This document shows positions 26,367 through 60,712 of a DNA stretch of 64,000 nt, piece by piece (within the stretch, counting starts at the first letter, position 1; each line of letters starts with the position of its first letter). This stretch comes from Halobaculum sp. MBLA0143 (GTDB taxonomy: Archaea; Halobacteriota; Halobacteria; Halobacteriales; Haloferacaceae). Below the pieces are notes generated by a model that worked only from the letters and a program-made list of their open reading frames with translations, did not search any database and was not told the origin of the DNA. The stretch lies in the NCBI RefSeq assembly GCF_041361465.1, contig NZ_JBGKAC010000002.1, forward strand, positions 186,001 through 250,000, written 5' to 3'. A program made the translations under genes and the position numbers.

Positions 26367-26576
26367 ATGCGCGACGCGATGGCCCGGCTCCAGGCGACGG
26401 TCGCACGGCACCCGAGACTCCTCACGACCCTGCTGTTGGTCGTGTTGTTCGTGGCAGTCGCCGATCCTGTCGCGGCCGCCGACGGTGGGTTCGATGGCGG
26501 GCTCGACCTCACTACAGATGGTGGGGTGTCGATCGATGATGGCGGGAGTGAGTACTCCGGCCCGACTAATCCGTGA
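26367..26576 (+). CDS. small (69-aa) secreted or membrane-anchored peptide
   Basis: The N-terminus is basic (MRDAMARLQATVARHPR) followed by a hydrophobic stretch (LLTTLLLVVLFVAVADPVAAA) that is either a Sec signal or a membrane anchor, then a short Gly/Asp-rich tail ending GPTNP. A TATA-like box lies at leaderless spacing. Its 3' end overlaps the 3' end of the CHAT gene by 11 bp (tail to tail). The tail could be a substrate or a toxic peptide but nothing proves this. Confidence 0.6.
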   Translation: MRDAMARLQATVARHPRLLTTLLLVVLFVAVADPVAAADGGFDGGLDLTTDGGVSIDDGGSEYSGPTNP

Positions 26577-28875: not shown

Positions 28876-30540
28876 TCACCCCACGAGCCCGTCGTACGCT
28901 CGGCGGTGAGCGACAGTGAGGACAGCGAGGAAGCCGACCGCGGCGTACACGGCCGGGACGAACGCTGCGACACTCTCCGCAGTGATGCCCGCGAAATCGG
29001 CGAAGAACGCACCGTTCAGCGGCCCGAGGTACCAGACGCCGAGATACGACGCCTCGAACAGCCGTTGTGAGCCCGTCCACAGCCCGGCCACGAGTGCGAG
29101 TGAGGGTGGAAACAGTACCGTCCCCAGCAGTCCGACAGCCACCTCTGGGCCGGCACCAGCGACCGACAGCACGAACGCGCCCCCGGTGACAGCCAGCCCG
29201 ATCAGACAACCGGCCGCCCACTCGGCGAACAGTTGTCCGACGGGGTACTGCGACGCACGGATCTGTTCGATGATCCCGGCGCGGGCGGTCTCTGCTCCGA
29301 TCCGAGACCAGACGAAGATCGGCCACACCGCTGCCAGCAACAACACCGCCTGGCCGCCACTGTCGGTTCCTGTGGCTGCGAGCCACACCGGCACCCCCGC
29401 GAGCGCCACGGCACCGAGATACCACCACCACGGGTGTCCACGGAGGAGCCGGCGGAGTTCGACGGCCAGCAGACGGCCGAACCCACCGGACTGCTTCCCT
29501 TCAACCGGCGTGAGCGACAGTTCGTCGATCCGTGGACGGCTATCCGGTGGGCTCACCGACCCGCCGCCGTCGCCTCGGAGTGACGGGAGCGTGGGCAGGA
29601 TTGAGCGAACGGACACCGACGGGACGCGTCTCGCCACCGGTCCCGGTGTCGTCTCGCGGAACCGAGTGAAAGGCACACTCGCAGCGACTGTGAGGACGAC
29701 CCCGACTGACGCACACCCGAGTCGCTGGAGGAAGAACCACGCCGGCCAACGACCACCCTCGTAGCGGAACGTCTGTTCGAGCGTCCCACCGGTGCCGAAG
29801 CTCACGAACCCACGGTCGAACGCCGGGTAGCCAGACCGAACGGCGTCGAACGTCAACTCGTGGGCCAACACCCGGCCCAGAAGGTCGAACGACCTGGCTC
29901 CCGTCTGGACCGCTGCGGGTGTCGCCGTTCCGGACGGCGCGAACAGCCCGCCGACGACGAAGACCATCGACACGAGGTAGACGACGCGGCCGAGTGTCCC
30001 GACGAGTAGGTCGATCGTCTCGAACAGAATCGCCACCCCGCCGACGAGAACCGCCAGCGGAACGACCATGACGAACACGGGCCAGGCGATGGCGACGGGG
30101 TCTGTCGAGCCGACTCCGTGGACCGCGTGGTTCGCAACGGCTGCGGCTGCCAGCACAGCCGCGGTCAACAGCCCAATCACTGTGTTGCTCCCCAGCTTCC
30201 CCAGAAGGTACACCGGAGTCCGGGCGTTGCTGGTGGCGAGAAGGGGACCGTGACCCTGGTGTTCGTCTCGGGCGATCGTCCCACGCATCAGGTAGAACCC
30301 ACCGAACAAGGTCACCATCGACCCGGCGACACCGGCGTTGAGCCCGGTCATCGGGGCGGTCAGCGCTCCGCTCACCAGACTGTCTTCGACAGAGTAGAAC
30401 AGTCCGAAGGTGCCGACGTTGATCAGATAGCCGAAGTAGACGACGACCGCCAGAAACGCGAGGAGCTTTCTGGAGCGGAGTCGCGCGAGCAGATCCGTTC
30501 GCGCGACGTGGTAGACACGGCGTGCCTCACGCCGCAGCAT
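28876..30540 (-). CDS. ABC-2 type transporter permease (large, two-module)
   Basis: 554 aa with about twelve hydrophobic segments in two blocks (residues 25-290 and 360-550) separated by a hydrophilic linker, as in ABC-2 permeases of the Nod/bacteriocin-resistance kind. The start 'MLRREARRVYHVARTDLLARLRSRKLLAFLAVVVYFGYLINVGTF' is typical. It overlaps the preceding ATPase gene by 14 bp, so the two form one transporter. Its place at the edge of the lanthipeptide cluster suggests export or self-protection, but a general multidrug role is not excluded. Confidence 0.8.
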   Translation of the reverse strand: MLRREARRVYHVARTDLLARLRSRKLLAFLAVVVYFGYLINVGTFGLFYSVEDSLVSGALTAPMTGLNAGVAGSMVTLFGGFYLMRGTIARDEHQGHGPLLATSNARTPVYLLGKLGSNTVIGLLTAAVLAAAAVANHAVHGVGSTDPVAIAWPVFVMVVPLAVLVGGVAILFETIDLLVGTLGRVVYLVSMVFVVGGLFAPSGTATPAAVQTGARSFDLLGRVLAHELTFDAVRSGYPAFDRGFVSFGTGGTLEQTFRYEGGRWPAWFFLQRLGCASVGVVLTVAASVPFTRFRETTPGPVARRVPSVSVRSILPTLPSLRGDGGGSVSPPDSRPRIDELSLTPVEGKQSGGFGRLLAVELRRLLRGHPWWWYLGAVALAGVPVWLAATGTDSGGQAVLLLAAVWPIFVWSRIGAETARAGIIEQIRASQYPVGQLFAEWAAGCLIGLAVTGGAFVLSVAGAGPEVAVGLLGTVLFPPSLALVAGLWTGSQRLFEASYLGVWYLGPLNGAFFADFAGITAESVAAFVPAVYAAVGFLAVLTVAHRRAYDGLVG

Positions 30541-31399
30541 GGTCTACCGTGTTGAGATACGCATCTTCCAACGTCGCCGCCACCGGCTCGGAGTCGGGGG
30601 TCGGAGGCTCGTCGGCGATCAACCGGAGTTCGAACCCCTCTGCTCGCCTGACCGTGTTGCAGACTGGGTACTCCTCACGGAGGCTGTCGGCAGTGTCTCC
30701 CGACACGGTGCACGTGTACACCCGCCCCTCGACACGGTCGATCAGCGCCTCGGTCTCGGCATGTGTGATCAGTTCACCGTCGTCGAGAACGGCGACTGTG
30801 TCGGCAGTGGCCTCGATGTCACCGATGACGTGTGTCGAGAAGATCACGACACGGTCGCCGGGCGTGTCGGCGAGCGCGTTCCGCATCCGGACGCGTTCTT
30901 CTGGATCGAGCCCGACGGTCGGCTCGTCGACGACTAGTAGATCCGGGTCGCCGAGAAGCGCCTGTGCGATGCCGACCCGTTGGTGCATCCCGCCGGAGAA
31001 AGTGTCGAGTCGACGGTCGCGGACATCGGCCAGTCCGACCAGACGGAGTAGTTCGTCCGTTCGAGCACTCGCCGTCTCGGAATCGAGTCCGCGAAGCGCG
31101 CTAACGTACTCCATGTACTCTTGGAGCTGGAGACTAGAGTACGTGTCGAAGTCCTGTGGTAGATATCCCAGGGCCGACCGGATGGTCTCTGGTGACTCTG
31201 TTATCTCCGTTCCGTCCCAGTGGATGGTCCCCTCTGTCGGCTCTGAGACGGTCGTCAGCATCCGCATGAGTGTGCTCTTGCCGGCTCCGTTCGAACCCAG
31301 CAGTCCGTGAACGCCGGCGTCTAGTTCGAGTGTAACGTCGCGCACACCCCACGTCTCCGACTCGTACTTCTTCCCGACGTTTTTAATACCGAGTCTCAT
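30527..31399 (-). CDS. ABC transporter ATP-binding protein
   Basis: 290 aa from ATG at 31399 (MRLGIKNVGKKYESETWGVRD); longer frames upstream cross the promoter. Walker A 'GLLGSNGAGKSTLMRML', Q-loop 'LGYLPQDF', signature 'FSGGMHQRVGIAQALL', Walker B 'LLVVDEPTVGLDP' and H-loop 'VIFSTHVIGD' are all intact. The C-terminal 90 residues are an accessory domain. Pairs with the permease at 28876. The AT-rich stretch ATTACAAAGG / AATAAG just upstream is the likely promoter. Confidence 0.9.
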   Translation of the reverse strand: MRLGIKNVGKKYESETWGVRDVTLELDAGVHGLLGSNGAGKSTLMRMLTTVSEPTEGTIHWDGTEITESPETIRSALGYLPQDFDTYSSLQLQEYMEYVSALRGLDSETASARTDELLRLVGLADVRDRRLDTFSGGMHQRVGIAQALLGDPDLLVVDEPTVGLDPEERVRMRNALADTPGDRVVIFSTHVIGDIEATADTVAVLDDGELITHAETEALIDRVEGRVYTCTVSGDTADSLREEYPVCNTVRRAEGFELRLIADEPPTPDSEPVAATLEDAYLNTVDHAAA

Positions 31400-31648
31400 G
31401 ACCGACTTATTTGCGAACCTTTGTAATAAATGTGACGGGAAGAACACAATTCGAGCGACGAACCGAGGCGTCGTTCGTGCTCGTCGGCACCGCCGGTAGC
31501 CGCCAGCGATCAGTTTGGGGTACGCTCCTGGCGACAGAGCACAGTTCCGTGGCTCGGCCGGTCGCCTCGTAGAACTCGGTCCCGAGTGCACCAGACCGAC
31601 GGTCGACACGGACGGCTCCCTGAATGGGTGGGCTTCCGTTTGCTACGG
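31400..31648. other. spacer with a diverged insertion-element end
   Basis: 250 bp between the two transporter units. At 31618-31648 it carries CCCTGAATGGGTGGGC and CTTCCGTTTGCTACGG, a diverged copy of the TnpB-element end at 23360-23390, lying directly at the stop codon of the next gene as the element end does at 23391. No gene seen. Confidence 0.45.
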
Positions 31649-32434
31649 TCAGTAGTGACCCATCACACCCCGGCCGCGGGCGGTCTGGACGAACCGGAGC
31701 ATCACGACGTACCCCAGAACGGCGTACCCGATCCCCGTCGCAGCCAGGATTGCCACCTCACTCCCGGCGAACGTCCACAGGTGCGCATCCTCGGTCATGA
31801 TCCGCCGGAGGAGGTAACTCCCCTGTGTCAGCGGCAGGAGCTTGAGCGCGGGGTACGCCTCGACGGGCGCTGCGATCAGCCCGACGAACCCGAACTGGAT
31901 GATGTTGAACACGTTCCCGATGCGCTTGTAGACGACCGCCGCACCACCGAACGCGAAGCCGACGCCGATGACGGAGCTGACAGACAACACGAGCGTCATC
32001 AGGATACTGAGTAGATTGAACTGGAGTTGGATGTCCGTCGTCAGCAGCATCGCCACCAGTAACGAGAAGGCGGTCAACACGGCGACGAGCACCTCCGCGA
32101 CGGCGGTGAACACCGCCACGAGACCGAATCCGCTCCGACACATGTACAGCTGTTCGAGCGTCCCCCAAGACGCCTCGGCAGCGAAGGCGTTTGCGAGACT
32201 GTTGTACGCAGAGATGGACGCAGTGACCAAGAAGAATCCGACGACGATCGACGCCAGCGAGTCGTCGAACGCACCGCCGCCGATGGCGCGCCCACCGAAC
32301 AGCGTCAGCAGGAAGAACACGTAGATCGTCACGATGGACGCCAGCGTGTTGATGGGGTACCTGTACATCAACAGGGCCTTCTTACCGATCACGCCTCGAA
32401 ACAGTCGTCCACGGGTCCGAACCTCCTCACGCAT
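31649..32434 (-). CDS. ABC-2 type transporter permease
   Basis: 261 aa from the ATG at 32434 (MREEVRTRGRLFRGVIGKKALLMYRYP). Six hydrophobic segments, e.g. 'LASIVTIYVFFLLTLFGG', 'SIVVGFFLVTASISAY', 'EVLVAVLTAFSLLVAMLLTT', 'ILAATGIGYAVLGYVVMLRF', fit an ABC-2 permease; 'AEASWGTLEQLYMCRSGF' is the conserved segment before TM3. It overlaps the ATPase gene by 8 bp, forming the second transporter of the lanthipeptide region. Single-module size is that of lantibiotic immunity (LanE/G-like) or drug exporters. Confidence 0.85.
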   Translation of the reverse strand: MREEVRTRGRLFRGVIGKKALLMYRYPINTLASIVTIYVFFLLTLFGGRAIGGGAFDDSLASIVVGFFLVTASISAYNSLANAFAAEASWGTLEQLYMCRSGFGLVAVFTAVAEVLVAVLTAFSLLVAMLLTTDIQLQFNLLSILMTLVLSVSSVIGVGFAFGGAAVVYKRIGNVFNIIQFGFVGLIAAPVEAYPALKLLPLTQGSYLLRRIMTEDAHLWTFAGSEVAILAATGIGYAVLGYVVMLRFVQTARGRGVMGHY

Positions 32435-33437
32435 CGTTCTTGCCAGAGATGGTCGCTCTGTTCCACTCGTCGCCGTCCGTGATCTCCAGATACACCTCAC
32501 TGAAGTCTACTTCCGTCGTCTCGATGTTCGTGACGGAGACGCCTGCCTCCACCAGACGGCCGAGTAGACTGTGCAACTGTTCCGTGTCTTCGATCGAGAC
32601 TTCGATCCTGTCGTGTCCGTCGCGCTTCGAATCGCCGACGACGTCGAACTCGTCTCTGATCCGGGACAGCGTCGCCTCGTCGGCGCTGCTCAACGAGAGA
32701 GCGACGTTCTGTCTGTCGAACAGTTCCATCAGTTCGTCGACGGACTCGTCCGCGATCACCTCTCCGTCCGACATGACGATGACGCGGTTACAGATTTCTT
32801 CGATCACCTCCATGTCATGACTCGACACGATCACTGTCAGTCCCCCCTCACCGACGAGCGTCGTTAGCTGCCGGCGTAGCTCCAGAGAACTCTCGACGTC
32901 CAAGCCCAGTGTCGGTTCGTCCAAAAACAGCACGTCGGGTCGACGTGCGAGTGCGGTCACGATCCCCGCTTTCTGTTTCATCCCCCGTGACAGCTCGTTA
33001 ACCGTCGTATTCAATTTGTCCTCGAGACCGAACGCTTCGTACAACTCCTCGTGTCTCTCCCGGTGCTCTGCCGGGTCGTGTCCGGCCAGCCGGCTGAAGA
33101 AACGGACGTTCTCCCGAACGGTGAGTCGCCAGTACGTCGTCCGAGCGCCTTCGAGGACAGCGGAGACGCGCGCGAACGTGCGCTTCGGGTTGTCGTCGAC
33201 GCTGAACCCGTCGATCTGAACCTTCCCGTCTGTCGGACGAACGAGGCCGAGCATCGACTTGATAACGGTCGTCTTCCCCGCGCCGTTGTGGCCAAGTAGC
33301 CCCGTGATCGAACTGCGGTCTATCTCGAAGGAGACATCGTCCACAGCGATGACTGAATCTTCACTGTCACCGTACTCCTTCTTGAGACCCCGAACCGATA
33401 CTATTGGTTCATCCACAGCGGTTTCAGTTCTGCTCAC
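32427..33437 (-). CDS. ABC transporter ATP-binding protein
   Basis: 336 aa from GTG at 33437, chosen because a TATA-like AAATATTTAAAAAG at 33454-33467 leaves room only for a leaderless transcript starting at this GTG. Walker A 'GLLGHNGAGKTTVIKSML', Q-loop 'SAVLEGARTTYWRLT', signature 'LSRGMKQKAGIVTALA', Walker B 'VLFLDEPTLGLD', 'VIVSSHDMEVIEE'. The last 90 residues form a regulatory domain as in lantibiotic and bacitracin exporters. First gene of the ATPase-permease pair. Confidence 0.9.
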   Translation of the reverse strand: MSRTETAVDEPIVSVRGLKKEYGDSEDSVIAVDDVSFEIDRSSITGLLGHNGAGKTTVIKSMLGLVRPTDGKVQIDGFSVDDNPKRTFARVSAVLEGARTTYWRLTVRENVRFFSRLAGHDPAEHRERHEELYEAFGLEDKLNTTVNELSRGMKQKAGIVTALARRPDVLFLDEPTLGLDVESSLELRRQLTTLVGEGGLTVIVSSHDMEVIEEICNRVIVMSDGEVIADESVDELMELFDRQNVALSLSSADEATLSRIRDEFDVVGDSKRDGHDRIEVSIEDTEQLHSLLGRLVEAGVSVTNIETTEVDFSEVYLEITDGDEWNRATISGKNDA

Positions 33438-33449
33438 AAAGATACTCCT

Positions 33450-33470
33450 AACCAAATATTTAAAAAGTTT
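33450..33470 (-). promoter_or_regulatory. TATA-box region of transporter 2
   Basis: On the minus strand CTTTTTAAATATTTGG lies 17-32 bp upstream of the GTG at 33437, an unmistakably AT-rich element in GC-rich DNA and at the distance expected for leaderless haloarchaeal mRNA. Confidence 0.6.
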
Positions 33471-33498
33471 TTGTTGGTTGGCTGGGCTGCAGGAGGTA

Positions 33499-34107
33499 CT
33501 AAGACTCACCGGGCGGTGTCACGTCGACACCGTCCGGTGTCGGACGACACACAAGTCGTTCATCTGGAGCGGCCGTCGGCCTGCTTCCTGGGCTCGTAAG
33601 GGGGAACTGTTGTTCGTACGGCGGGGTCTCGTCGTCGGAAACGGCGACCAGACGTGACCCACGGGGGATGAACCCGCGTTCGACCACCGTCTCGAACGCC
33701 GCTTCGATCTCCTCAGAAGAGACGCTGAGGTGTCTCCGTTCCGTCACCGTCTCGTCTCGTGTGCGTATCTCCGACTCTACGGCTACTCCGACACCACCTA
33801 CAGTGTACGGACTCCAAGCCGGGACGGGAAGATCTGCGGTCCGCGTCGTCCGTAGCTCCGGCGAGCATGTCTCTGTGCCGACTACCTCGACGTGCGATAG
33901 CTCGGCTGTCTCTGTCTCTTCGTCCACACCGAAGTAGTGGACAGACAGACTAACACTGATCGACTCCACCTCCCAGACAACGTTTCGACCGACGAAATCG
34001 ACCACGACTGTGGCTGTGTCCCCCGTCTCAGCTCGACGCCGGTCGAGCCAGACGGTCAACTTCGAGTCTCCGTCCACAACCCTTCCGAGCGACATCTCTC
34101 TGTTCAT
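33499..34107 (-). CDS. Spo0M-like (arrestin-fold) protein
   Basis: 202 aa. The start 'SLGRVVDGDSKLTVWLDRRRAETGDTATVVVDFVGRNVVWEVESISVSL' with 'LPVPAWSPYTVGGVGVAVESEI' follows the Spo0M/SpoOM family pattern, a two-domain beta-sandwich resembling arrestins. In bacteria these are regulatory scaffold proteins; haloarchaeal members are uncharacterised. It lies between transporter 2 and the maturation genes on the same strand (62 bp and 91 bp gaps), so it is probably part of the lanthipeptide transcript by position only. Confidence 0.6.
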   Translation of the reverse strand: MNREMSLGRVVDGDSKLTVWLDRRRAETGDTATVVVDFVGRNVVWEVESISVSLSVHYFGVDEETETAELSHVEVVGTETCSPELRTTRTADLPVPAWSPYTVGGVGVAVESEIRTRDETVTERRHLSVSSEEIEAAFETVVERGFIPRGSRLVAVSDDETPPYEQQFPLTSPGSRPTAAPDERLVCRPTPDGVDVTPPGES

Positions 34108-34198: not shown

Positions 34199-35509
34199 TC
34201 ACTCGCCGTCGGACTCGTCCGAGCGGACGGCTTCGAGCGTGGTCTCGATACGGTCGTCCAACGGATCGAGGATTTCTCGGCGAAACGCCTCACGGGTTCG
34301 GTCTCCATCGGTGAACTGACCGCGCTCGTCGACCCAGGACCCAGGAAACTGCCCGTACAACTGTCGTTGGAGGAACTCGACGCCGTGGTCGACGACGTCG
34401 TCGTACACCGACACAATCGGTGTGTCTGCGAGTTCGGCCAACGCCTCCGAACCGCGTTCGAGACTGTAGTCGGCCAGTGCCGACAGCGCCGTGCCGAGCG
34501 TGTCGAGTTGGTCGTCGACAGCGTCGTGTGTGATGTTTCGGGCCGGTGACTCTCGACGAATCTGGTGCCAGTCTCGCGCGACTGTCCGACACAACATCCC
34601 GAACACGATCGTCGGGTGGTAGTGACACCGCCAGCCCACCTCGTTGTCTTCCCACAGCTCTGGGTTGACGCCGGTGTACGTCCGCAGTTCCAGTGGGTCG
34701 TCTGTGGGAAAACGCAGTGCCCCGTCGCCGCCGACCCGGTCCGCCAGCCAGCCGAGCACGTACCGGACCAGTCCGGGTGGTACCTGACGTTGGAGCACAC
34801 CGACGAACAACAACTCCACGACGGCGTCGACGTGATCCTCCGCGAGAAACCGAAACAGGAGCCCCAGAATCGTGTCCGGAGCCTCGTACGACAACGGTTC
34901 GTCCGGAAACTCCGCTCGGTCGTTCCCGAGGTTGTGGTAGAACAACAGTTCGTGTGTTATCCCGTAGGCAGCTCCGATGTCCGCGTCGACGGCGTTGATC
35001 CGACAGCTGGTGTAGCCGTGTTCGAGCAAGGCTTGCGGGTCGAAATCGTCCGGCCGAATACCGTACACCAGACAGGTGTGCCAGTAGTCCAACTGTCTCG
35101 ATACCGGGCGACCGGGCTGTCTCGCGGCCGAGAGTGTTGCCGTCCGCTCGAACAACCGTTCGACACGCGCCGGAAGGTCGTCCTGTCGAGACAGCGCCGC
35201 CAAGGGGTACGCCAGATGTGGGAACTGACGTGGGTGTCGCAGGAACTGTCTGTAGTAGTCCGGTGTCGTCGCCCGCTCGGTGAGAAGCTGCCGACAGGCT
35301 GCCGGGCCGTCGTCTCCGTGAGCGAACGAGCTGTCCAGATACATTGCAAGCTCACAGAACGCCTTCTGACGCACCTCTCTGCGTCTCGACTGCCCGACAA
35401 GGGGGTCGAACCGGGCGGCGTTCTCGCCGAGCCAGCAGTCGGTCCCGACGACGAGCCGCCGTGCAGTCTCGACGACCTCTCCGCAGGAGACGGGATCGAC
35501 ACTCGTCAC
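34199..35509 (-). CDS. DUF6895-like helical protein in the lanthipeptide operon
   Basis: 436 aa from the GTG at 35509, which overlaps the LanC stop (GTGA). It is alpha-helical throughout: 'ENAARFDPLVGQSRRREVRQKAFCELAMYLD', 'AYGITHELLFYHNLGN', 'GWRCHYHPTIVFGMLC'. The 'FDP', 'TH..FY...G' and 'YHPT' spots match what I remember of the DUF6895 family found next to RiPP and secondary-metabolite genes in actinomycetes. Paired His/Asp positions could bind metal but no reaction is known. Translational coupling to lanC argues for a role in maturation or in a complex with the cyclase. Confidence 0.6.
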   Translation of the reverse strand: MTSVDPVSCGEVVETARRLVVGTDCWLGENAARFDPLVGQSRRREVRQKAFCELAMYLDSSFAHGDDGPAACRQLLTERATTPDYYRQFLRHPRQFPHLAYPLAALSRQDDLPARVERLFERTATLSAARQPGRPVSRQLDYWHTCLVYGIRPDDFDPQALLEHGYTSCRINAVDADIGAAYGITHELLFYHNLGNDRAEFPDEPLSYEAPDTILGLLFRFLAEDHVDAVVELLFVGVLQRQVPPGLVRYVLGWLADRVGGDGALRFPTDDPLELRTYTGVNPELWEDNEVGWRCHYHPTIVFGMLCRTVARDWHQIRRESPARNITHDAVDDQLDTLGTALSALADYSLERGSEALAELADTPIVSVYDDVVDHGVEFLQRQLYGQFPGSWVDERGQFTDGDRTREAFRREILDPLDDRIETTLEAVRSDESDGE

Positions 35510-36777
35510 GGCCACCCACCCACGGTTGTCGACTCGAACTGGACGAGCGACGGGAGTGACGGCTCCAACAGCCTGAGGAACCCGTACCCCACCCCGGTCG
35601 TCCCGAGGAACAACACGGGGTTCGACAGTCCGGTGATCCCGCCGTGTGTGATGCTGTACTGTCCGGTCTCCGATCGACGTTCGAGAACCACGTGTGCGAG
35701 CCCGCGTGGCCGCTCCATCGACACGAGATCTGCGGTCTCGTCGTGAGACGCCAGCCCCACCAAGAGGTCCAACACGCCGGCGTTTCCGTGACACAACGAG
35801 TCGTGAGCCAGGAGCCCACTATCGAGCGCCTCGGCGACCCGGCGCGCGTCTCGACGGAGGGTGTCGCTACCGTGTACCGAGAGGCTTCCGAGGCGGGTGG
35901 CACCGACGCCGGTCTTCCCGCTACACCACCAGTCGGTGTAGTCACGCACACCGCCGAAGTTTGCCTTCCAATTTCGCTCGTGTGGACTGTAGAACGTGTT
36001 CTCGAACGCGACCGCCTCCTCTGCGATCTTGATGTACCGCTCGTCTTCAGTGTGGGCACCGAGGCGGTAGAGGGCGTGAGCGATGCCGCCAACTCCGTGG
36101 GCTGCACCCACTGCGGCACTCCCGACTCCGTCGACCCGGCTCGTGTCCCAGACGCTGTAGCCGTTCCACTTCTCGAACCGCTCCGATAGGAGGTGTTTCC
36201 CACAGGCGTGTGCTGTCTCCAGCGCCGTGTCGTCGCCGCTGGCCTCGTAGTACGCCAGCAGTCCGTGGACGGTCCCAGCGGCTCCCAACAGAACGTCGTA
36301 CTGTCGGTCGTCGGCGACGGTCTCCCGGTCAATCGCCTGGACGACCTCACTGGCCCGGTCGGCGTACACCGGCTCACCGGTGAGTCCGGCCAACAACGTC
36401 AGGCCGTACACTGTCGACCCGACACCGCTCCCGACGCCGATATCTGGGCGGGCACAGACGGTCTCCGGGTCCGTCTGGAGACACCGGTCCGCCCACGCGC
36501 GTGCGGAGTCAGTGTAGGAGTCAGTCTCCGTTACCGCCGCGAGCGCGGCGAAGTAGACGGCAACGCCGAGTCGGCCACAGAACACGCCGGGCTTGGCCGC
36601 CGGGTGGACGCCGTTTTCACCCTCGATGTAGCCCACAGTCTGGACGATCTCGTCGGGGTACCCTATCGCTGGCTCGGGGAGCTGTCTGGCGATCGCCTCT
36701 GCGGCCGAGCGGAGTCGGTCGTCCGAGAGGGTCGTCGTCGGTCGGTCTCGTGGTCCGTCGATGGTGTGTTCTGTCAT
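35506..36777 (-). CDS. LanC-type lanthionine cyclase
   Basis: 423 aa. The alpha/alpha-toroid repeats ('GVFCGRLGVAVYFAALAAVT', 'DIGVGSGVGSTVYGLTLLAG', 'YDVLLGAAGTVHGLLAYYEA', 'VGAAHGVGGIAHALYRLG') and the zinc triad are present: Cys285 in 'WWCSGKTGVG', and Cys329-His330 in 'SLCHGNAGVLDL'. LanC enzymes add cysteine thiols to dehydroalanine/dehydrobutyrine to make (methyl)lanthionine rings. It follows the dehydratase gene by 6 bp. In ordinary class II systems this domain is the C-terminal third of LanM, so the split arrangement is unusual. Acts in the cytosol on the modified precursor. Confidence 0.9.
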   Translation of the reverse strand: MTEHTIDGPRDRPTTTLSDDRLRSAAEAIARQLPEPAIGYPDEIVQTVGYIEGENGVHPAAKPGVFCGRLGVAVYFAALAAVTETDSYTDSARAWADRCLQTDPETVCARPDIGVGSGVGSTVYGLTLLAGLTGEPVYADRASEVVQAIDRETVADDRQYDVLLGAAGTVHGLLAYYEASGDDTALETAHACGKHLLSERFEKWNGYSVWDTSRVDGVGSAAVGAAHGVGGIAHALYRLGAHTEDERYIKIAEEAVAFENTFYSPHERNWKANFGGVRDYTDWWCSGKTGVGATRLGSLSVHGSDTLRRDARRVAEALDSGLLAHDSLCHGNAGVLDLLVGLASHDETADLVSMERPRGLAHVVLERRSETGQYSITHGGITGLSNPVLFLGTTGVGYGFLRLLEPSLPSLVQFESTTVGGWP

Positions 36778-36783
36778 TTTGTG

Positions 36784-38733
36784 TTATACCTTCCCGTCTG
36801 GGTGGATGCGGGGGACGACCCTCGGACTCGACAACGCCGCGCAGATCAGTCCGCGTTGACGGCGTCGGTCCATCGGCCCCAACTGCTCCAGTCGCTCCCG
36901 AACCCGTTGGACGCCCGTCCGTTCGGTGAGGTGTTCGACAATCTGTCGGCCGTCGAAGTAGAGTCCTGGGTCGTCGCCAGTGGTCGTGAATCGCGGTACG
37001 TCGCCGCGGTGAAGTGCCTCGTGTTCGGCAGCGACGATTCGATCCCAACGGCGATCGTCCAGTTCGGTCATCGATGTCTGTTGTTCCAACACAGGCCGGT
37101 CGCGCCGGAGACTCAGTGTACGGCGGATCTCCGCGTCGTACCGGACACCGTGTCTGAGATTCGTCGGAGAGTGCGCCGCACGTCGGACCGACTCGTAGGC
37201 TCTCGTCGTCCGGAGGAGGAGCCGAGTCTCGATCTCTTCGAACCGATCTGCGAGCGGCGGCGCGAGGCTGTCTGCGGTTTCGTCGATGGCGTCGTACGTC
37301 TGCTCGAACCCATCTACAATCTCTGACTGGAACTGCTTCGGTGGGATGGGACGCCCGTCGTACGTCGGGAAGTTGTCGTCGCGCTCCGCCTTGACTGTCG
37401 TGTAGTCGACATCGATCCCGTCGGTGCCGAGATTCTTCCAGTCCAACATCTCAGCGCTCGTCTCTCGGCCCTCGATCCCAGCGTACCCCGACACGCTTCT
37501 CGGGAGCGATCCCTGTGGAAGTAGATTTGTCCCGAGAACGGAGCTGTTGAAGACCGTCGTGCGAGCCGCCTGCTGAACGTCCGTCTCGGCTCCCGTTGCC
37601 GGTCGGTTGTCCATTTCAAAAATCGTTTCGAGGTCGACGACAACGGGGCCGTCGGCCGTTGCGATCACGTTCTCACAGTGACAGTCGGTCAGATAGAGGA
37701 CGTACGCGACCGCCAACAGCGCACCGGCCCGTCTGTAGTAGCTAGCGACGGAGTCGACAGTGTCGTGTGACTCCTGTGTCACAACCTCGACCCAGCCGTA
37801 GTCACCACGGTCGAGCAACGACGGGACGGGGAGTTCCGGAACGGATACGTCTGCCGCAGCCAGGTCGGCAGTGAGGTCGTGGACCGTCTGTTCCGTCTCC
37901 AGCCCCCGTGGCTTGTACACCGCCTCCGTCTCCTCGTCGAACTCGACGAGCAGGACACAGTCGTTCTCGTCGTGACGGTCGCCGGCGGCTGTGAGTCCCG
38001 TCACCCGCTGTGGGTCAGTCCGCAACAACGATTCGAGAGCGTCGTCGTCCGACGCGAACCGCTCGGCGAACGATTTGAAACTGTCGTGCCACTGGTCGAT
38101 CGTCTCGACAAGCAGGCGAGCACCGACGGCGTACTCCTCGAAGAAGTCTGCGGCGCGGCTCTCGAGCACTGCTGTGATGTACTGGTCGTACCACTCGGTC
38201 GAGTCGGCCGACAGCCGTCCCTCACGGACAACTGCGGTGTCCCGTTGTGCGACGTACCGGACGAAATCGACGTGGTGTGCCCGCGCGAGCACCTCGGCGA
38301 GTCGAGTGGCCAACACCCGCTGACAGTCATCGATGGCGTCGTCCGTCCACAGTTCCGTCGGGGCCGCCCGGTCGAACCGCTCCCACGCCGTCTCGACGTA
38401 CTGCGAGAGGACGGGCCCGAACGGAACATCCGACAGGTGATCTGGAACCGAGCTGTCGGTTGGATCGAGCCCCGACAGCAGGTCGTCCAGAAGTGTGACC
38501 CACTCCGGCAACGACTCCGGTGCTGGCCACCGTTCGAAGGCGACGTAACGGGCTGCTCGTGCCCGGTCGATCCGCTCCCCGTTCCAGTAGCCGGTAGTGA
38601 TTATCTCTCCGAACTCACTCAGCAGTTCTCGTGTCTCTTCTGTGTGTTCCGCTCGCCTCTCACGGTGTTCGTGCCGGACACGCTCTGTCAGCGACTCCCC
38701 GCGTGCCGCTATTTTGTGGTAGTCCGGATTCAT
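36784..38733 (-). CDS. LanM-type dehydratase (class II lanthipeptide synthetase lacking the cyclase domain)
   Basis: 649 aa, compared with about 900-1100 for fused LanM. The DUF4135 kinase-like dehydratase is complete: Lys274 in 'AVYKPRGLETEQ', the catalytic loop 'DCHCENVIA' (Asp350, His352, Asn355), and 'VVVDLETIFEMD' (Asp367-Glu369), plus 'NSSVLGTNLLPQG' and 'DIDVDYTTVKAERDDNFP'-like activation segments downstream. These residues phosphorylate and then eliminate Ser/Thr in the core peptide. The protein stops where LanC would begin, and LanC is the next gene. The upstream 230 bp separates it from the precursor gene; an AT-rich box (ACTTATTAGTTTTCTAC on the minus strand, 38775-38800) may be its own promoter. 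Confidence 0.92.
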   Translation of the reverse strand: MNPDYHKIAARGESLTERVRHEHRERRAEHTEETRELLSEFGEIITTGYWNGERIDRARAARYVAFERWPAPESLPEWVTLLDDLLSGLDPTDSSVPDHLSDVPFGPVLSQYVETAWERFDRAAPTELWTDDAIDDCQRVLATRLAEVLARAHHVDFVRYVAQRDTAVVREGRLSADSTEWYDQYITAVLESRAADFFEEYAVGARLLVETIDQWHDSFKSFAERFASDDDALESLLRTDPQRVTGLTAAGDRHDENDCVLLVEFDEETEAVYKPRGLETEQTVHDLTADLAAADVSVPELPVPSLLDRGDYGWVEVVTQESHDTVDSVASYYRRAGALLAVAYVLYLTDCHCENVIATADGPVVVDLETIFEMDNRPATGAETDVQQAARTTVFNSSVLGTNLLPQGSLPRSVSGYAGIEGRETSAEMLDWKNLGTDGIDVDYTTVKAERDDNFPTYDGRPIPPKQFQSEIVDGFEQTYDAIDETADSLAPPLADRFEEIETRLLLRTTRAYESVRRAAHSPTNLRHGVRYDAEIRRTLSLRRDRPVLEQQTSMTELDDRRWDRIVAAEHEALHRGDVPRFTTTGDDPGLYFDGRQIVEHLTERTGVQRVRERLEQLGPMDRRRQRGLICAALSSPRVVPRIHPDGKV

Positions 38734-38964: not shown

Positions 38965-39099
38965 TCAGTAAGTGTTGCTCCAACAGCTGAGCGAGACGCA
39001 GGACTCGGCTGCCTCCATCTCCGGGATGTCGTCTTCTGCAGACAGCGTGTGCTTTTCGTCCAGTTCCTCGACCAGTTCGTCCGCGCTAGTTGCTGACAT
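38965..39099 (-). CDS. lanthipeptide precursor peptide (LanA-like), 44 aa
   Basis: ATG at 39097-39099, stop TGA at 38965-38967. Residues 1-32 are an acidic helical leader (MSATSADELVEELDEK, then an EDDIPEMEAAE segment) of the type recognised by LanM; residues 33-44 are the core SCVSLSCWSNTY, with Ser33, Ser36, Ser38, Ser41, Thr43 as dehydration sites and Cys34 and Cys39 as ring partners. It is the first gene upstream of lanM/lanC on the same strand. Two Cys allow at most two rings. The leader has no canonical GG site; cleavage near Ala31/Glu32 is a guess. Upstream DNA (39100-39245) is the most AT-rich in the window, as expected for a strong separate promoter. Confidence 0.82.
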   Translation of the reverse strand: MSATSADELVEELDEKHTLSAEDDIPEMEAAESCVSLSCWSNTY

Positions 39100-39331
39100 G
39101 TGTGGTGTCACCTACCGTTCCGCACCGCATCCTCACCAACAACAGAGAGGGATTAAACCTTTTCTATACTATATCAACATGAATCTCCCGCCTATTACCT
39201 TAGTGAGTAATATTTTTATAGAATATAAAAAGAAATAAAAACTCGTGCCGGGAGTGTCACTTGCCACACATCACTCTGCGTTCAACCACAAAGCTGGGTG
39301 CTGGTCGCGGCTCCTAGACGGCAGCGCGCCC
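39100..39331 (-). promoter_or_regulatory. AT-rich promoter region of the precursor gene
   Basis: The block 39150-39245 is about two-thirds A+T in a GC-rich genome. On the minus strand AGGTTTAATCC (39149-39160) is a TATA-like element about 55 bp before the ATG, and further TATA-like stretches (ATATTCTATAAAAATATTAC) lie beyond. It separates the precursor from the CapA-like gene, which is transcribed towards it. Confidence 0.5.
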
Positions 39332-40588
39332 TCACTCGTCCGTCGACACTACCTTCCCGTTATCTAGTTCGACACAGAGACTTGTCTCGAACCGAGAGGA
39401 TCGGTCGTCAACTGTTCGAAGCGTCTCTCGTCTCTTCTCGTCAGCTGCGAGCCGTGGAGCCCCTTCATCGTCCCGCTTTACGACATCGAGCATCGTCGAC
39501 TCCACTCCGTCGTCCCCGACGCTACAGGTCGGAATGATTGCAGTGTTGCGGTTGCGGGCGACTGCGAACCCCTCGTCGAGCGGTGACAGATCGTCGCCAC
39601 TCCCGAGGAGACTCTCTTCTTGTCGCAGTCGTGGACGCCCCGGTCTGGTGCGGACGAGTCGGCCCAGCCCGTAGAACACGACTGCATCCTCGACGCGGTC
39701 AACCCCACGCAACGCTTGTGAACCCTGGACGACGACGATGTCTGCGCCCGCACGGGCGACCGTCTCGACGAACGACCGGACGAACGCCGGGGGTTCGTCG
39801 AACGGCCCCCCGTGTGCGTACTCGTGAGAGTGAACGTACACGACGACGGTCTCAGCGTCGGTGGCTGCCCGTGTGACACGTTCCCGCAGTTCGCGTCTGT
39901 CGGCCGGGAGCGTCTCTGTCGTCCACCCGTCCGTCGCCCGCCGTGGGTCGTGGACGTACTGTTCGACCGGGAGGCTCGTTCCGGGCCTGTTCACCAACAG
40001 CTCGTCACCGTTCCGAACGACCCCGTGATAGCCGTCGCGCTGGACCTCTCGTTTGACCTGCTCCCAGTGGTCGTCGTCCACGATCGTTCTGTGCCGCAGG
40101 GGGCACACCCCCGGCCGGCGTGTGCCCCCGCGTGTCTTACCGGCGATCGCGTGTTCGTGAAACGTCGCTGCCGCCGAAATCACCGCCACGTCACCGTCGC
40201 TCGTCTCGACTGTCGTCGGGGAACGTGCGTCGGCCAAGTCCCACCCGGTGCCCGCGTGCGCCACGTCGGCGGCGTCGAGTGACCGCCACGCCGCGAACAG
40301 CCCCGAGTAGGTGTGATCCAGGACGTGCTCCCCGGCGAGTGTCGCTACGTCGATTCCGACATCGGCGAGACGGCGACCGATATCGTCGGGTGCGGTGTGG
40401 ATTCCTCCGAGCGACCGATGTGCCGGGTACGACTCGTTTGCCTCTCCTTCGGGCACCGACTCGAGATGTGTCACTGTCACGTCTCCTGTGGAGAGAGTGT
40501 CGCCCAACTGTCTCAGGTTGAGCCGAGAGCTACTACAAAACTGCTTCGTGAGAACGGTGTCTCCGGTGAGAACGATATCTCGTGTCAT
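39332..40588 (-). CDS. CapA-like (PGA_cap) metallophosphoesterase-family protein
   Basis: 418 aa. 'DIVLTGDTVLTKQF' (the family D-x(2)-G-D start), 'VTHLESVPEGE', 'LADVGIDVATLAGEHVLDH', 'TVVVYVHSHEYAHGG' and 'ARAGADIVVVQGSQALRGVDRVEDAVVFYGLGRLV' line up with CapA/PgsA proteins. In the canonical family the last block is 'GaD...G.HpH..q....y....v.YslGN'; here the HPH metal site is replaced by QGSQ, so catalysis may be altered. It precedes the precursor gene on the same strand and may belong to the same cluster, perhaps in peptide export or envelope protection. Function not established. Confidence 0.7.
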   Translation of the reverse strand: MTRDIVLTGDTVLTKQFCSSSRLNLRQLGDTLSTGDVTVTHLESVPEGEANESYPAHRSLGGIHTAPDDIGRRLADVGIDVATLAGEHVLDHTYSGLFAAWRSLDAADVAHAGTGWDLADARSPTTVETSDGDVAVISAAATFHEHAIAGKTRGGTRRPGVCPLRHRTIVDDDHWEQVKREVQRDGYHGVVRNGDELLVNRPGTSLPVEQYVHDPRRATDGWTTETLPADRRELRERVTRAATDAETVVVYVHSHEYAHGGPFDEPPAFVRSFVETVARAGADIVVVQGSQALRGVDRVEDAVVFYGLGRLVRTRPGRPRLRQEESLLGSGDDLSPLDEGFAVARNRNTAIIPTCSVGDDGVESTMLDVVKRDDEGAPRLAADEKRRETLRTVDDRSSRFETSLCVELDNGKVVSTDE

Positions 40589-42125: not shown

Positions 42126-43367
42126 TCAGAGTCGTTCGTCAAGCGATCCCACTGGCGAGTCGCCTCTGAGCCCGTTCAGGAGGACATCGGACGGACAGCC
42201 AAGTTCGTACTCGTAGTGACGGCCACCACTCCGGCCCCTATTGACTTCCGTCGAATTGACGATTCCGTTCACCATCAGGTCGTTGAGCGTGTTGTGAACC
42301 GTTCGTGAGGTGACCGGATCGACATCCACCTCGGAGGCGTACTGCTCGTACCATGCGTACGCCTCGTCGATCTTCGCTGGGAGCTCTTCTCCCTCTTCGA
42401 GCCTGAGCATCGCGTAGGCGATCAGCTTCCCGTGCATCGAGAGCCCCTGGACCTCCTCGACGATTGCCCCCTGCTGAATCCGTTCTTCTGCCGCGTGGAC
42501 GTGTTCGGCCTCAACGACCCCGTCACCCTCCGAGCGGGCCTTGTCGGCGGCCTCGTACAGCAGGTTGAGCGCCGTTCGGGCGTACCCCGAGCGCTGGGCA
42601 GCCAGGGCAGCCGTCAGCGGGACGGCGTCGTTGGACAAGACGCCGTCGTGGAACGCGACCTCCGCCCGGTCCTGGAGGATAGTCTTGAGTTCGTTGGCGT
42701 CGTACGGCGGGAAGTGGACCTCCTGGTCGCAGAGCGTCGACTTGGCCCGCGGGTCCAGCGAGTCGCGGAACGTCCCGTCGTTGGTGATCCCGATGACCCC
42801 GACCTTCGTCTCCACTGGGTCGACGTACGTCGCACTGTTGTCGTTGTTACACCGGGGGAGCTTGTACAGGATGTTGTCGTTGTCGCCGATATTATCGATC
42901 TCGTCGAGAGCGATGAGAACGTGCGTCTCGGGGACGCGTCGGAGCTCGTCGAACAGCATCCGATAGATCTCGCCTTCTGGGTAGCCCGTCGTGCTGATCT
43001 GGTCGCCGTCACTCTCCACCCGGAGGAGATTCAACAGGTGGGCTGCGACCTGGTACGAGGTGTTGAGATCCTTACACTCCAGGTGGACTGTTCGGAGACT
43101 CGGCTCGACGAACCGAGAGTCCTCGTAGCCGAACGCCTCGATACTCTCCTCGATGTTCTGGAGGACTGCCTTCGTGCCGATCGTCTTGCCCACCCCGGTC
43201 GGGCCGTAGACGAACACGTTCCGCGGGCGCTTGTTCCTGACTACCTCCTTGAACTTGTTCTGGTACTCGGCCAGTTTCTCGTCCCGTTCGAGAATCCGCT
43301 CGGGAAAGTGGTCGCGGAGGGCGTCCTCGTCGTGAAAGATGCCGTCGCCCGGGGTCAGAGGCTCCAT
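42126..43367 (-). CDS. orc1/cdc6: Orc1/Cdc6 replication initiator
   Basis: 413 aa. AAA+ ATPase with Walker A 'VYGPTGVGKTIGTKAVL', Walker B 'VLIALDEIDNIGDNDN', sensor 1 'GVIGITNDGTFRDSLD', and 'SGYARTALNLLYEAADKARSEG', followed by a C-terminal winged helix ('AYAMLRLEEGEELPAKIDEAY', 'TSRTVHNTLNDLMVNGIVNS'). It binds origin boxes and loads the MCM helicase. The gene lies between two sets of boxes whose sequence is unlike the main haloarchaeal chromosomal ORB, so initiator and boxes form a private pair, as on haloarchaeal megaplasmids or secondary origins. Confidence 0.93.
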   Translation of the reverse strand: MEPLTPGDGIFHDEDALRDHFPERILERDEKLAEYQNKFKEVVRNKRPRNVFVYGPTGVGKTIGTKAVLQNIEESIEAFGYEDSRFVEPSLRTVHLECKDLNTSYQVAAHLLNLLRVESDGDQISTTGYPEGEIYRMLFDELRRVPETHVLIALDEIDNIGDNDNILYKLPRCNNDNSATYVDPVETKVGVIGITNDGTFRDSLDPRAKSTLCDQEVHFPPYDANELKTILQDRAEVAFHDGVLSNDAVPLTAALAAQRSGYARTALNLLYEAADKARSEGDGVVEAEHVHAAEERIQQGAIVEEVQGLSMHGKLIAYAMLRLEEGEELPAKIDEAYAWYEQYASEVDVDPVTSRTVHNTLNDLMVNGIVNSTEVNRGRSGGRHYEYELGCPSDVLLNGLRGDSPVGSLDERL

Positions 43368-43924: not shown

Positions 43925-44794
43925 TCACCACGCCCAGGCAATCCGAACGCCGAGCGTCCACTCGACGGACCACACGCTGGCCGGGGCCGTCGTCGGGATC
44001 TGAACGCCGTCGGTGTCGAGCACGGACGGCACGAGCGTCCCGAAGCGGAACGAGCCCGTCGCCTCGTAGCGGCCCGGTGCCGTGGTCCGCTCCGTCGCCC
44101 GGAGTTGGTACCGGCGGGTCGTCGCCGCACCGGGGTCGTACCGTTCGTGGCTCAACGACGACTGGACCGCGAGACTCCGCAGTGGCGGCAGGTGCGACAG
44201 CGGCGCGTCGGGGAAGAACGTCGGGACGAACTCGGAGCCGCGCCCGTCGACCGCTTCGAAAGTGACGTGCCCGAACGGCTCCGGTGGTCCGCCGAACACC
44301 ACCACGGCGCGGTCGCTCCGGTTACGCGCCGTCAGCGCGAACGTCGCCGGCGCGCCAGGACCGACGAGCCCGTCCGCGGCCGCCGCCTCGACGGCCACGG
44401 GTGGCGGCCCGTCGGCCTGCGTCGGCACGACCGCGAACGCCCGTGCGTGGTCGTCGCCGAACCCGACGACCCACTCGACGCCCGCGAGCGCCTCGCGGAC
44501 CGCGCTCGGATCGCCGACCCCGTCGCAGTCTCCACAGTTGTCGGCCACCCCGGCGACCGTCCGGAGCGCCTCCGCTACCGACGGCGCGAACGACGACAGC
44601 GCCGCCGTCTCCGCCGAGCGATCCAGTTCCTCGGCGTCGACCACCCCGGCGCGTCCGAGCGCGTACGCCCGCTCCGGGCGGTCGTGTATCACCTCGAAGT
44701 CGACCTGCTCGACCTCGAACACGCGGGCCGCGCCGGCGACGCCCACCGCGGACACCGACGCAATGACACCGCGGAGGAACCGTCTCCTGTTCAC
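43925..44794 (-). CDS. Tat-exported protein of unknown function
   Basis: 289 aa from the GTG at 44794, which overlaps the stop of the preceding gene (GTGA). N-terminus 'NRRRFLRGVIASVSAVGVAGAA' is a twin-arginine signal. The mature region has one CxxC ('NCGDCDGVGD'), then 'GPGAPATFALTARNRSDRAVVVFGGPPEPFG', an immunoglobulin-like beta-sandwich, and a further beta-rich part. No enzymatic family recognised. It is placed directly behind the truncated CHAT-family gene and may have been brought under its promoter by the deletion that removed the CHAT domain. Confidence 0.7.
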   Translation of the reverse strand: MNRRRFLRGVIASVSAVGVAGAARVFEVEQVDFEVIHDRPERAYALGRAGVVDAEELDRSAETAALSSFAPSVAEALRTVAGVADNCGDCDGVGDPSAVREALAGVEWVVGFGDDHARAFAVVPTQADGPPPVAVEAAAADGLVGPGAPATFALTARNRSDRAVVVFGGPPEPFGHVTFEAVDGRGSEFVPTFFPDAPLSHLPPLRSLAVQSSLSHERYDPGAATTRRYQLRATERTTAPGRYEATGSFRFGTLVPSVLDTDGVQIPTTAPASVWSVEWTLGVRIAWAW

Positions 44795-46224
44795 GTCCGA
44801 CGGTCGCAGCAAGGGCGCTTCAACCCGACGGCCGAGTGTCGAGTCTGCTCGGACGCCTGGACGACCGTCACCGAGAGGTCGCCGTCCGTCAGCGGTCGGA
44901 GCCGCGGGAGCCCGTCCCCGACGACGTTGAACGCCTGCAGCGCCCGCCGGGGACCGTGCCACCCGACCGTCCGGGCACGTTGTTCCGGCCCGATCATCAC
45001 GTCGCCGGCGGTGTACCCCTGGCGGCTCCGGGTCGTCCGCTGTGACCACCGGCCACGATCCGTCAGCGTCTCCAGTTGCGCGCCGCTGGGGCTGTACACG
45101 TCGGCCAGTCGACCGAGGTAGTGCGACAGCGCCGGCACGCGCTCCAGCTCCGGATCGACGTGGAGTCCGAGGTGCCACTCCGGGAGCCGGTCGAGGAAGT
45201 CGCCGCCGGCGTTGCCTCCGTCTCCGTCGCCGCCGCCGGTGTCGCCGCCGAGGACGCCCGTCGTGTCGAGGTACCGCCGAACCCGCTCGGCGAGCGGGGT
45301 GTCGTACAGCCGGACGGCGTCGAGTCCGAGTTCGTCCAGGAGCTCGCGCTCGACGAGGTCCGTGCCGTACGGGCCACCCGTTCGAGCGAGACAGTCGAGG
45401 AAGAACACCGTCCGGAGGAGCGCCGAGGCCGTCTGGTCGGTCGTCTCGGGGTCGTCGCCGAGGTGGAACGTCTCCGGGCCGACGCGGAGGTGGGTCCCGC
45501 TCGCGTCCGGATCGACCGTCGCCTCGGCACCGAGGTAGTGGAGCAGTCCGGCCGTCGGCAGGAGGTGCGCCAGTCCGTCGTCGTCGGTTCCGGGAACGAC
45601 GACCTCCGTGTCCGTGTCCGGGCAGTCCGCGAGCGCGCCGTCGACGGACTCTCTGTCGCGGAACCGCATCCGTGGCGGTTGCTTGCGAACGTTCGGGAAG
45701 CTGCGGTCCGGCGTGGTCGTCTGCGTGTTACACCCGAGCGCGGAGAGCCCGCGTGCGACGCCGTCGAGACTCTCCTCGACGTAGATCGAGCCGGGCGAGT
45801 CCTGGTGGCGACTCTCGAAGCCGATCTCGATTTCGGTCGGCTGGTCGAACTCGACCTCGACCGCTTCGGCCGTCCGCCGCACTCGGCCCGTCCCGTCGGC
45901 GCGGACGTGGACGAGCACGGGCGTTCGGAGGATCACGGCCGTGTCCGGGCCGACGGCCGCGGTGTCGCCGTCGGTGAGCTGGCGGTGCTCCGGGCCGTCG
46001 GCGGCGAGGTCGACCACCGTCGCGGCCACCGGCGGCGCGGTGAAGCCCGTCGTCTCCGTGTGGTGACGCTCCTGCGGGTCGTAGCCCACCTCCGTGAACG
46101 CGGTCAGTCCCGGGCCGTCGGACCGGAGTCCTGGCTCCGCGTCGGCGTCGAACTCCAGTTGTACCGTGTCCCGGAACTCGTCGATCACGCTCAGTGTTCC
46201 GGACTCTCCTTCGGTGAAGTTCAT
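44791..46224 (-). CDS. truncated CHAT-family protein lacking the protease domain
   Basis: 477 aa, closely similar over its first about 450 residues to the N-terminal region of the protein at 26566 ('MNFTEGESGTLSVIDEF', 'LGLHVDPELERVPALSHYLGRLADVYSP', 'TVGWHGPRRALQAFNVVGDGLPRL'). After 'LSVTVVQASE' the similarity stops and an unrelated 18-residue tail (QTRHSAVGLKRPCCDRRT) ends the frame, so the His and Cys of the CHAT dyad are absent. A 15-codon Gly/Asp-rich insertion is the other difference. Either a decayed paralogue or a protease-free partner of the intact protein; the frame is otherwise clean, and the promoter is conserved. Confidence 0.8.
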   Translation of the reverse strand: MNFTEGESGTLSVIDEFRDTVQLEFDADAEPGLRSDGPGLTAFTEVGYDPQERHHTETTGFTAPPVAATVVDLAADGPEHRQLTDGDTAAVGPDTAVILRTPVLVHVRADGTGRVRRTAEAVEVEFDQPTEIEIGFESRHQDSPGSIYVEESLDGVARGLSALGCNTQTTTPDRSFPNVRKQPPRMRFRDRESVDGALADCPDTDTEVVVPGTDDDGLAHLLPTAGLLHYLGAEATVDPDASGTHLRVGPETFHLGDDPETTDQTASALLRTVFFLDCLARTGGPYGTDLVERELLDELGLDAVRLYDTPLAERVRRYLDTTGVLGGDTGGGDGDGGNAGGDFLDRLPEWHLGLHVDPELERVPALSHYLGRLADVYSPSGAQLETLTDRGRWSQRTTRSRQGYTAGDVMIGPEQRARTVGWHGPRRALQAFNVVGDGLPRLRPLTDGDLSVTVVQASEQTRHSAVGLKRPCCDRRT

Positions 46225-55633: not shown

Positions 55634-55635
55634 CC

Positions 55636-60160: not shown

Positions 60161-60297
60161 CTCGACAGGCAGCACCCATCGACTGAAGCTGTTCGATGGC
60201 CTGGCTTGTACGGTGATCTAACCGAGGAGGTACTCACTGGTAAGGAGAGATCGAAATTCGTGACGGACGAAGGGGAGACCACTCGCAGTCTCAGTCA
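60161..60297. other. site where cas4 and cas1 are missing
   Basis: In haloarchaeal type I-B loci cas4 and cas1 usually follow cas3 and precede cas2. Here only 137 bp of non-coding sequence separate cas3 from a cas2 fragment. Neither gene is found anywhere in the window. Confidence 0.7.
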
Positions 60298-60370
60298 CCG
60301 CCGAGATCGCGGCGAGTGTCGAATGCACTTTTTCGGTGACGCCGAAGAACCGGAGGGTCGGTCCACGTAG
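60298..60370 (+). pseudogene. 3' fragment of a second cas2
   Basis: CGCCGAGATC...GTCCACGTAG aligns with the last 24 codons of the intact cas2 (60900-60973), including the tail 'DAEEP...' and the stop codon, but with one base missing in the middle (TTTTTCGG against TGTTCTCGG). The rest of the gene is gone. It is followed by a leader and decayed repeats, so it is the end of a former cas2-leader-array unit. Confidence 0.75.
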
Positions 60371-60653: not shown

Positions 60654-60712
60654 TCATTGAAGAAGCACCTACTCACGGGTGAGACGTACCACCCGACGAG
60701 GCGGTGGTGGTA

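Follow-up and report, generated by a model that had tools for sequence, protein, structure and literature searches.

Haloarchaeal class II lanthipeptides have already been isolated and expressed (PMC10105419, PMC12144867). In the archalans α and β, the sallans and the ciblans, a short acidic precursor (LanA) is encoded beside the gene of the synthetase LanM, the small core holds two Cys together with Ser/Thr, and each Cys lies N-terminal to its Ser/Thr partner; related ATP-binding cassette (ABC) transporters are found near several of these loci. In these papers LanM is described as one protein that includes the LanC domain, as it is in the structurally characterized CylM and LicM2 (structures 5dzt, 6st5; PMC4550811), where a kinase-like DUF4135 dehydratase is fused to a LanC fold with Cys, Cys and His as zinc ligands. 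By contrast, the class I cyclase NisC is a separate protein.

The locus described here lies in a window of 64,000 nucleotides from Halobaculum sp. MBLA0143, which spans bases 186001-250000 of a contig of 589 kb, one of the two that make up this haloarchaeal genome. An open reading frame (ORF) of 44 codons in this window encodes, at a probability of about 0.9, a precursor peptide (LanA) from which this haloarchaeon would make a lanthipeptide of the class II type. The locus shares the host group, the short acidic LanA, the composition and orientation of the core and the related transporters with the archalans, sallans and ciblans, but its LanM is divided into two genes (lanM' and lanC'), its leader motif ends in His (EKH) rather than in F/Y, and its cluster contains DUF6895 and Spo0M-like genes. 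With CylM and LicM2 it shares the dehydratase type with the same catalytic residues and the LanC fold with its zinc ligands, whereas the enzymes are separate. In this last respect it resembles class I, although the dehydratase is of the LanM and not the LanB type and the cyclase groups with the C-terminal domains of LanMs. An earlier note on this DNA remarked that precursors of this length are easily missed; this does not make the system new, given the haloarchaeal class II lanthipeptides already obtained by isolation and expression, and the novelty lies in the lineage of split LanMs. In the papers that could be read, no split LanM is described from archaea; PMC10105419 speaks of "a few truncated LanMs" as well as an outlying clade, either of which may correspond to such pairs.

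The precursor gene

38965..39099, minus strand: lanA, putative lanthipeptide precursor of 44 amino acids, kept in a genome of the same genus (G003); its leader aligns with those of precursors from other split-LanM clusters
39108..39240, minus strand: promoter region with ribosome-binding site, TATA-like box and AT-rich stretch

The ORF translates to MSATSADELVEELDEKHTLSAEDDIPEMEAAESCVSLSCWSNTY, and use of an in-frame GTG upstream of the start would add four residues. The earlier note described a minus-strand ORF directly upstream of the dehydratase gene and behind the most AT-rich promoter of the window, and this description stands: the 44 codons are present exactly at 38965-39099, 231 bp separate them from the dehydratase ORF (start 38733), and the 100 nucleotides with the lowest GC content of the whole 64 kb are found just upstream of lanA (39141-39240, 27% versus 65% overall). 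A Shine-Dalgarno-like AGGTGA (39108-39113) is placed 8 nucleotides 5' of the ATG and a TATA-like TTTAAT box (39152-39157) about 52 nucleotides upstream of lanA, both of which are also conserved in G003.

Genome G003 carries the whole gene run in the same order and with about 80% protein identity (locus L035: ABC4, ABC2, ABC1, Spo0M-like, DUF6895, LanC, LanM, LanA, PGA_cap). Its version of the ORF, MSATSADELVEELDEKHTRSAEDDIPEMEMERDSCISLSCWSDTY, is 86% identical at the amino acid level, and the single indel comprises three nucleotides, that is, one whole codon. DNA identity between the window and L035 reaches 89% over the ORF and 78% over the 45 nucleotides just upstream, while the remaining flanks are at 44-49%. 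Outside a linker of four codons, the two versions differ by six synonymous and three non-synonymous changes (proportions pS 0.24 and pN 0.03), and a test for neutrality gave P = 0.0035 with a small number of changes. Because identity peaks over the ORF, most substitutions are silent and the indel removes or adds one complete codon, lanA is very probably a real and constrained gene, conserved in a related cluster and under selection at the protein level, as the earlier note expected of a true precursor.

When the 44-residue peptide alone was searched against 392 genomes of the order, the sole strong match was itself and the rest was noise, from which a weak match in genome G144 (E 0.16) can be recognised because of its position exactly upstream of the G144 split LanM. 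The isolation of the peptide in this search, as well as the frequency of spurious short frames ending in Cys- and Ser/Thr-containing tails beside these genes, would fit a chance frame or a small regulatory protein, with the precursor of LanM' and LanC' encoded elsewhere. This is very unlikely given that the conservation peak coincides exactly with the ORF and its ribosome-binding site, that the indel preserves the frame, that the G144 match is so placed, and that related leaders are found at the same position in loci L101 and L102.

The split LanM and its lineage

36784..38733, minus strand: lanM', dehydratase-only half of LanM, 649 amino acids (Pfam DUF4135, E 2.7e-91; NCBIfam lanti_2_LanM, positions 5-519 of 932; PDB relatives LicM2 and CylM)
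35506..36777, minus strand: lanC', stand-alone cyclase half, 423 amino acids (Pfam LANC_like, E 5e-51; NCBIfam lanti_2_LanM, positions 539-932 of 932)

The two proteins thus match complementary parts of the same LanM model, and their genes are in the same frame, with an in-frame TAA and six nucleotides between them. Class II systems are described as having both activities in one LanM polypeptide, but here they are separate ORFs, which makes the pair a split variant of a class II-like synthetase; the earlier note treated lanM and lanC as two genes and left unremarked how unusual this is for class II. The CylM residues for phosphorylation and elimination (PMC4550811), namely D252, H254, K274, D347, H349, N352, D364, R506 and T512, are all matched in lanM' (D252, H254, K274, D350, H352, N355, D367, R504 and T510 in the numbering of the window protein). 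Similarly, an alignment to LicM2 shows the Cys, Cys and His zinc ligands in lanC'. Nine of the ten cyclases of the split clade retain them, with L100 departing at two ligands. Judged by sequence, the enzymes are thus a dehydratase of the LanM type and a cyclase of the LanC type, and since these downstream genes fit both parts of LanM, with catalytic residues and zinc ligands, the ORF is best read as the precursor of a class II-type lanthipeptide.

Split pairs of dehydratase and cyclase were found at ten loci (the window and nine others) in five haloarchaeal families. In scans of genome contigs a single-protein query gave no match, and a query with alignment A2 succeeded. The ten dehydratases form one clade with bootstrap and Shimodaira-Hasegawa-like approximate likelihood ratio (SH-aLRT) support of 99/93, and the ten cyclases likewise form one clade (98/98), the inner groupings of which are very similar to those of the dehydratase tree, indicating an old division passed on by inheritance. 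With the cyclase tree rooted on bacteria, the split clade is nested inside fused archaeal LanMs, so that one old, inherited division of a fused LanM is the simplest reading of the sequences. A reverse search with a profile of the stand-alone cyclase recovered seven such stand-alone genes, spread over 6 of the order's 382 genomes, with the score falling from 481 to 343 bits on reaching the fused LanMs.

The shared frame and the short spacer of the window pair could also result from a recent nonsense mutation, or an assembly error, in one fused LanM, which would make the locus a pseudo-cluster. Such decay does seem to occur, since four other short LanMs (L039, L040, L104, L105) are scattered among the fused ones in the tree, three of them with no LanC detected in the stretch examined and one with a LanC in an overlapping frame; these probably represent decay and were left out of the count of the split lineage. 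For the window pair a pseudo-cluster is extremely unlikely: ten pairs from five families fall into a single clade for both enzymes, both halves retain their catalytic residues in the window, and the junctions vary among the pairs (mostly overlaps of 4 nucleotides or 1 nucleotide, or gaps of 6 nucleotides), so that the breaks do not go back to one shared error. A recent break as the origin of the lanM/lanC split was rejected on the basis of the two trees.

In fused LanMs dehydration and cyclisation are hard to study apart, whereas a naturally separate and conserved class II pair would allow each step to be assayed with its native partner. The split lineage also shows that LanM can change its architecture, and it brings into archaeal peptide chemistry those clusters which searches for intact LanMs could discard as truncated.

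Three of the short LanMs, at L104:5467-7551(+), L105:6298-8304(-) and L040:5410-7455(-), group with fused LanMs, and no LanC was found near them; they are probably decayed, or else unusual dehydratase-only clusters. The genome of the window itself contains at least seven LanM-type genes (seven dehydratase matches), and a second split-LanM cluster with the candidate precursor MSELDRSAVEAQYNYDYVDPDEGTTLPADDTTSGGCSGPNSF is located at G000:C1:2397765-2400709 (L041:7404-10713). In the same genome, at L042:6436-7351(+), four tandem precursors precede one fused LanM, and three of their cores read GSC[IVT]S[GD][ST]C.

Core, leader and predicted product

38968..39003, minus strand: predicted core SCVSLSCWSNTY with predicted rings Cys34-Ser38 and Cys39-Thr43 (conserved spacing; pairing and cleavage site putative)

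The five Ser/Thr and two Cys ascribed to the core in the earlier note were recovered by counting (four Ser, one Thr, two Cys). The spacing C-x3-[ST]-C-x3-[ST] recurs in six precursors from four related clusters, with one precursor each in the window and L035 and two each in L101 and L102. A ring between Cys1 and Ser5 has been established by nuclear magnetic resonance in sallan A2 (CTRYSF; PMC12144867), and by analogy two non-overlapping rings, Cys34-Ser38 and Cys39-Thr43, are most likely here. A screen of ORFs beside haloarchaeal LanMs detected upstream ORFs with an alignable leader and a Ser/Thr/Cys core in seven of the nine other split-synthetase loci, including pairs of precursors in L101, L102 and L100 and single precursors in L103, L037 and L041. 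As a positive control, the same screen recovered the proven core of archalan α in L110, L112, L114 and L117, either as GCGFTCSPFSSW or with one change from it (pattern GCGFTCSPFSS[W/F]; chemistry from PMC10105419). The assignment of the ORF as a class II LanA, made in the earlier note from size, composition and position, can now also draw on the constraint of the ORF, on these leaders and on the LanM-type dehydratase and LanC encoded downstream.

The leaders of the split clade follow the consensus V-[DE]-Q-F-E-x-K-H, which takes the form VEELDEKH in the window. Of the leader motif Kx(Y/F)(D/E)xx(F/Y), which PMC10105419 cites from Castro et al., the window leader retains the hydrophobic-acidic centre and lacks the Lys and the last aromatic residue.

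Several points weigh against the ORF being a lanthipeptide precursor of this kind. The leader has no Gly-Gly or Gly-Ala cleavage motif, and a C39 peptidase was not found in a Pfam scan of the cluster proteins; host peptidases have been proposed for leader removal of haloarchaeal lanthipeptides (PMC12144867). Of the conserved leader and variable core that the earlier note sought as a sign of a precursor family, the conserved leader is seen in related loci; between the window and its closest relative the core hardly varies, and the combined sign appears only at greater distance. The precursors of L037, L041, L100 and L103, which belong to other sub-clades, are without the C-x3-[ST]-C-x3-[ST] spacing, and the screen identified no precursor in L036 and L038. 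When five of the cores were shuffled, the spacing arose in 0.05-0.5% of the shuffles each, the product of which, 2.5e-14, overstates the significance and is to be read as descriptive, because the pattern had been spotted in the very sequences that were shuffled.

In the favoured reading of the ORF as a LanA, its acidic leader would be recognised by the two-protein synthetase that arose by division of a fused LanM. LanM' would phosphorylate Ser and Thr of the core and then eliminate the phosphate to give dehydroalanine and dehydrobutyrine (Dha/Dhb), and the separate LanC' would add the two Cys thiols to form the predicted rings. ABC1/ABC2 would export the peptide and a protease encoded elsewhere by the host would cut off the leader. 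The product would be the core minus two H2O, with an expected [M+H]+ of 1313.53 for SCVSLSCWSNTY. Halocin-like or antibiotic activity, as suggested in the earlier note, is only a possibility, whose sole support is the precedent of archalan α, shown to be active (PMC10105419). Antagonism by Haloferax mediterranei was reportedly undiminished after deletion of lanM genes (PMC12893001, citing Castro et al.), and effects on motility are reported for other haloarchaeal lanthipeptides (PMC12144867).

Neighbouring genes and a candidate epimerase

34199..35515, minus strand: DUF6895 protein, candidate peptide epimerase (Pfam PF21836, E 7.6e-25; start set by the G003 homologue)
33499..34107, minus strand: Spo0M-like protein (Pfam PF07070, E 2.7e-7; homologues in L035, L101 and L102)
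32427..33509, minus strand: ABC transporter ATPase, ABC1 (Pfam ABC_tran; peptidase domain not found)
31649..32500, minus strand: ABC permease, CcmB-like, ABC2 (Pfam CcmB, E 8e-6; paired with ABC1 in related loci)
30527..31609, minus strand: second ABC ATPase, ABC3 (homologues beside DUF6895 in L211, L213, L214 and L216)
28876..30540, minus strand: second ABC membrane component, ABC4 (no Pfam match; homologues in L035, L101, L102 and DUF6895 loci)
39332..40588, minus strand: PGA_cap-family protein upstream of lanA, cluster membership uncertain (Pfam PF09587, E 7.8e-31)

Homologues of ABC1 occur in both split and fused haloarchaeal lanthipeptide clusters, and ABC1/ABC2 are also found beside several fused LanMs, while ABC3/ABC4 accompany DUF6895. 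The DUF6895 gene overlaps the end of lanC' and is present within the region examined in five of the ten split loci (the window, L035, L100, L101 and L102); elsewhere among haloarchaea it is rare, with 7 of 293 genomes carrying it. A lasso-peptide epimerase is reportedly among the members of the family (Shi et al., ACS Catal 2026, cited in PMC13352647), so that a lanthipeptide containing a D-amino acid is possible; epimerisation of one residue of the peptide by DUF6895 is speculative. An AlphaFold model of DUF6895 built from three sequences was too poor for use (mean predicted local distance difference test score, pLDDT, of 38). That an old two-protein class II lineage, part of which has been joined to a DUF6895 module, makes lanthipeptides with an enzymatically epimerised (D-) residue is a tentative proposal, which we consider somewhat doubtful. 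If DUF6895 does act on the same peptide, enzymatic epimerisation would be added to lanthipeptides.

The overlap of DUF6895 with the cyclase gene could also indicate that LanM' and LanC' make a dehydrated and otherwise finished peptide, with Dha/Dhb or epimerised residues, and that lanthionine rings play a minor part in it. Stand-alone DUF4135 dehydratases may serve the dehydrazoles, a class of ribosomally synthesised and post-translationally modified peptides distinct from lanthipeptides (PMC10676384). This alternative is unlikely, as LanC always stands beside the dehydratase in the split clade, almost always with its zinc ligands, and the nearest clusters preserve both the Cys of the core and the distance from each to its Ser/Thr.

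Two genes at the locus recall lasso-peptide epimerases, namely DUF6895 downstream of lanC' and the PGA_cap gene, related to MslH (PMC10406935), upstream of lanA; unlike in the lasso systems, none of the genes examined here was recognised as a lasso enzyme. The PGA_cap gene is syntenic in G003 at 82% and was not found in the other split loci. The epimerase MslH is the sole PDB relative of its product: Asp11, His88, Asp91, Glu44, His259 and His261 are matched, but His295 is replaced by Gln and the metal ligand Asn87 by Glu. MslH uses the catalytic pairs His88/Asp91 and His295/Asp11, and its H295N variant is inactive (PMC10406935). Since His295 is missing, the function of MslH was not assigned to the PGA_cap protein, which was downgraded as a candidate epimerase of this type.

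A DUF6895 gene also lies close to the short LanM of L105. Where DUF6895 genes occur without any LanM, one or more tiny acidic ORFs, most of 28-60 amino acids, are found upstream, which share an LTE motif and differ in their hydrophobic tails:

L211:6631-6768, plus strand: tiny ORFs before DUF6895
L212:6560-6754, plus strand: tiny ORFs before DUF6895
L213:7971-8204 and 8309-8491, minus strand: tiny ORFs before DUF6895
L214:5391-6170, plus strand: tiny ORFs before DUF6895
L216:7538-7802, minus strand: tiny ORFs before DUF6895

Most of these LanM-less loci carry the same ABC1-ABC4 transporters, and by their gene content they look like an undescribed family of ribosomal peptides with DUF6895 as the sole obvious modifying enzyme.

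Two paralogous ORFs flank the cluster on either side, at 26566-28635 and, in a shorter form, at 44791-46224 (both minus strand; no NCBIfam match). An Orc1/Cdc6 replication initiator is encoded at 42126-43367 on the minus strand (TIGR02928, E 2e-109), with an apparently repeated short motif in its flanking DNA, so that the lanthipeptide cluster may lie next to a replication origin of the second contig. Farther on, at about 52701-62400, ORFs resembling a locus of clustered regularly interspaced short palindromic repeats (CRISPR)-Cas, together with a repeat array, were recognised by eye from the ORF list.
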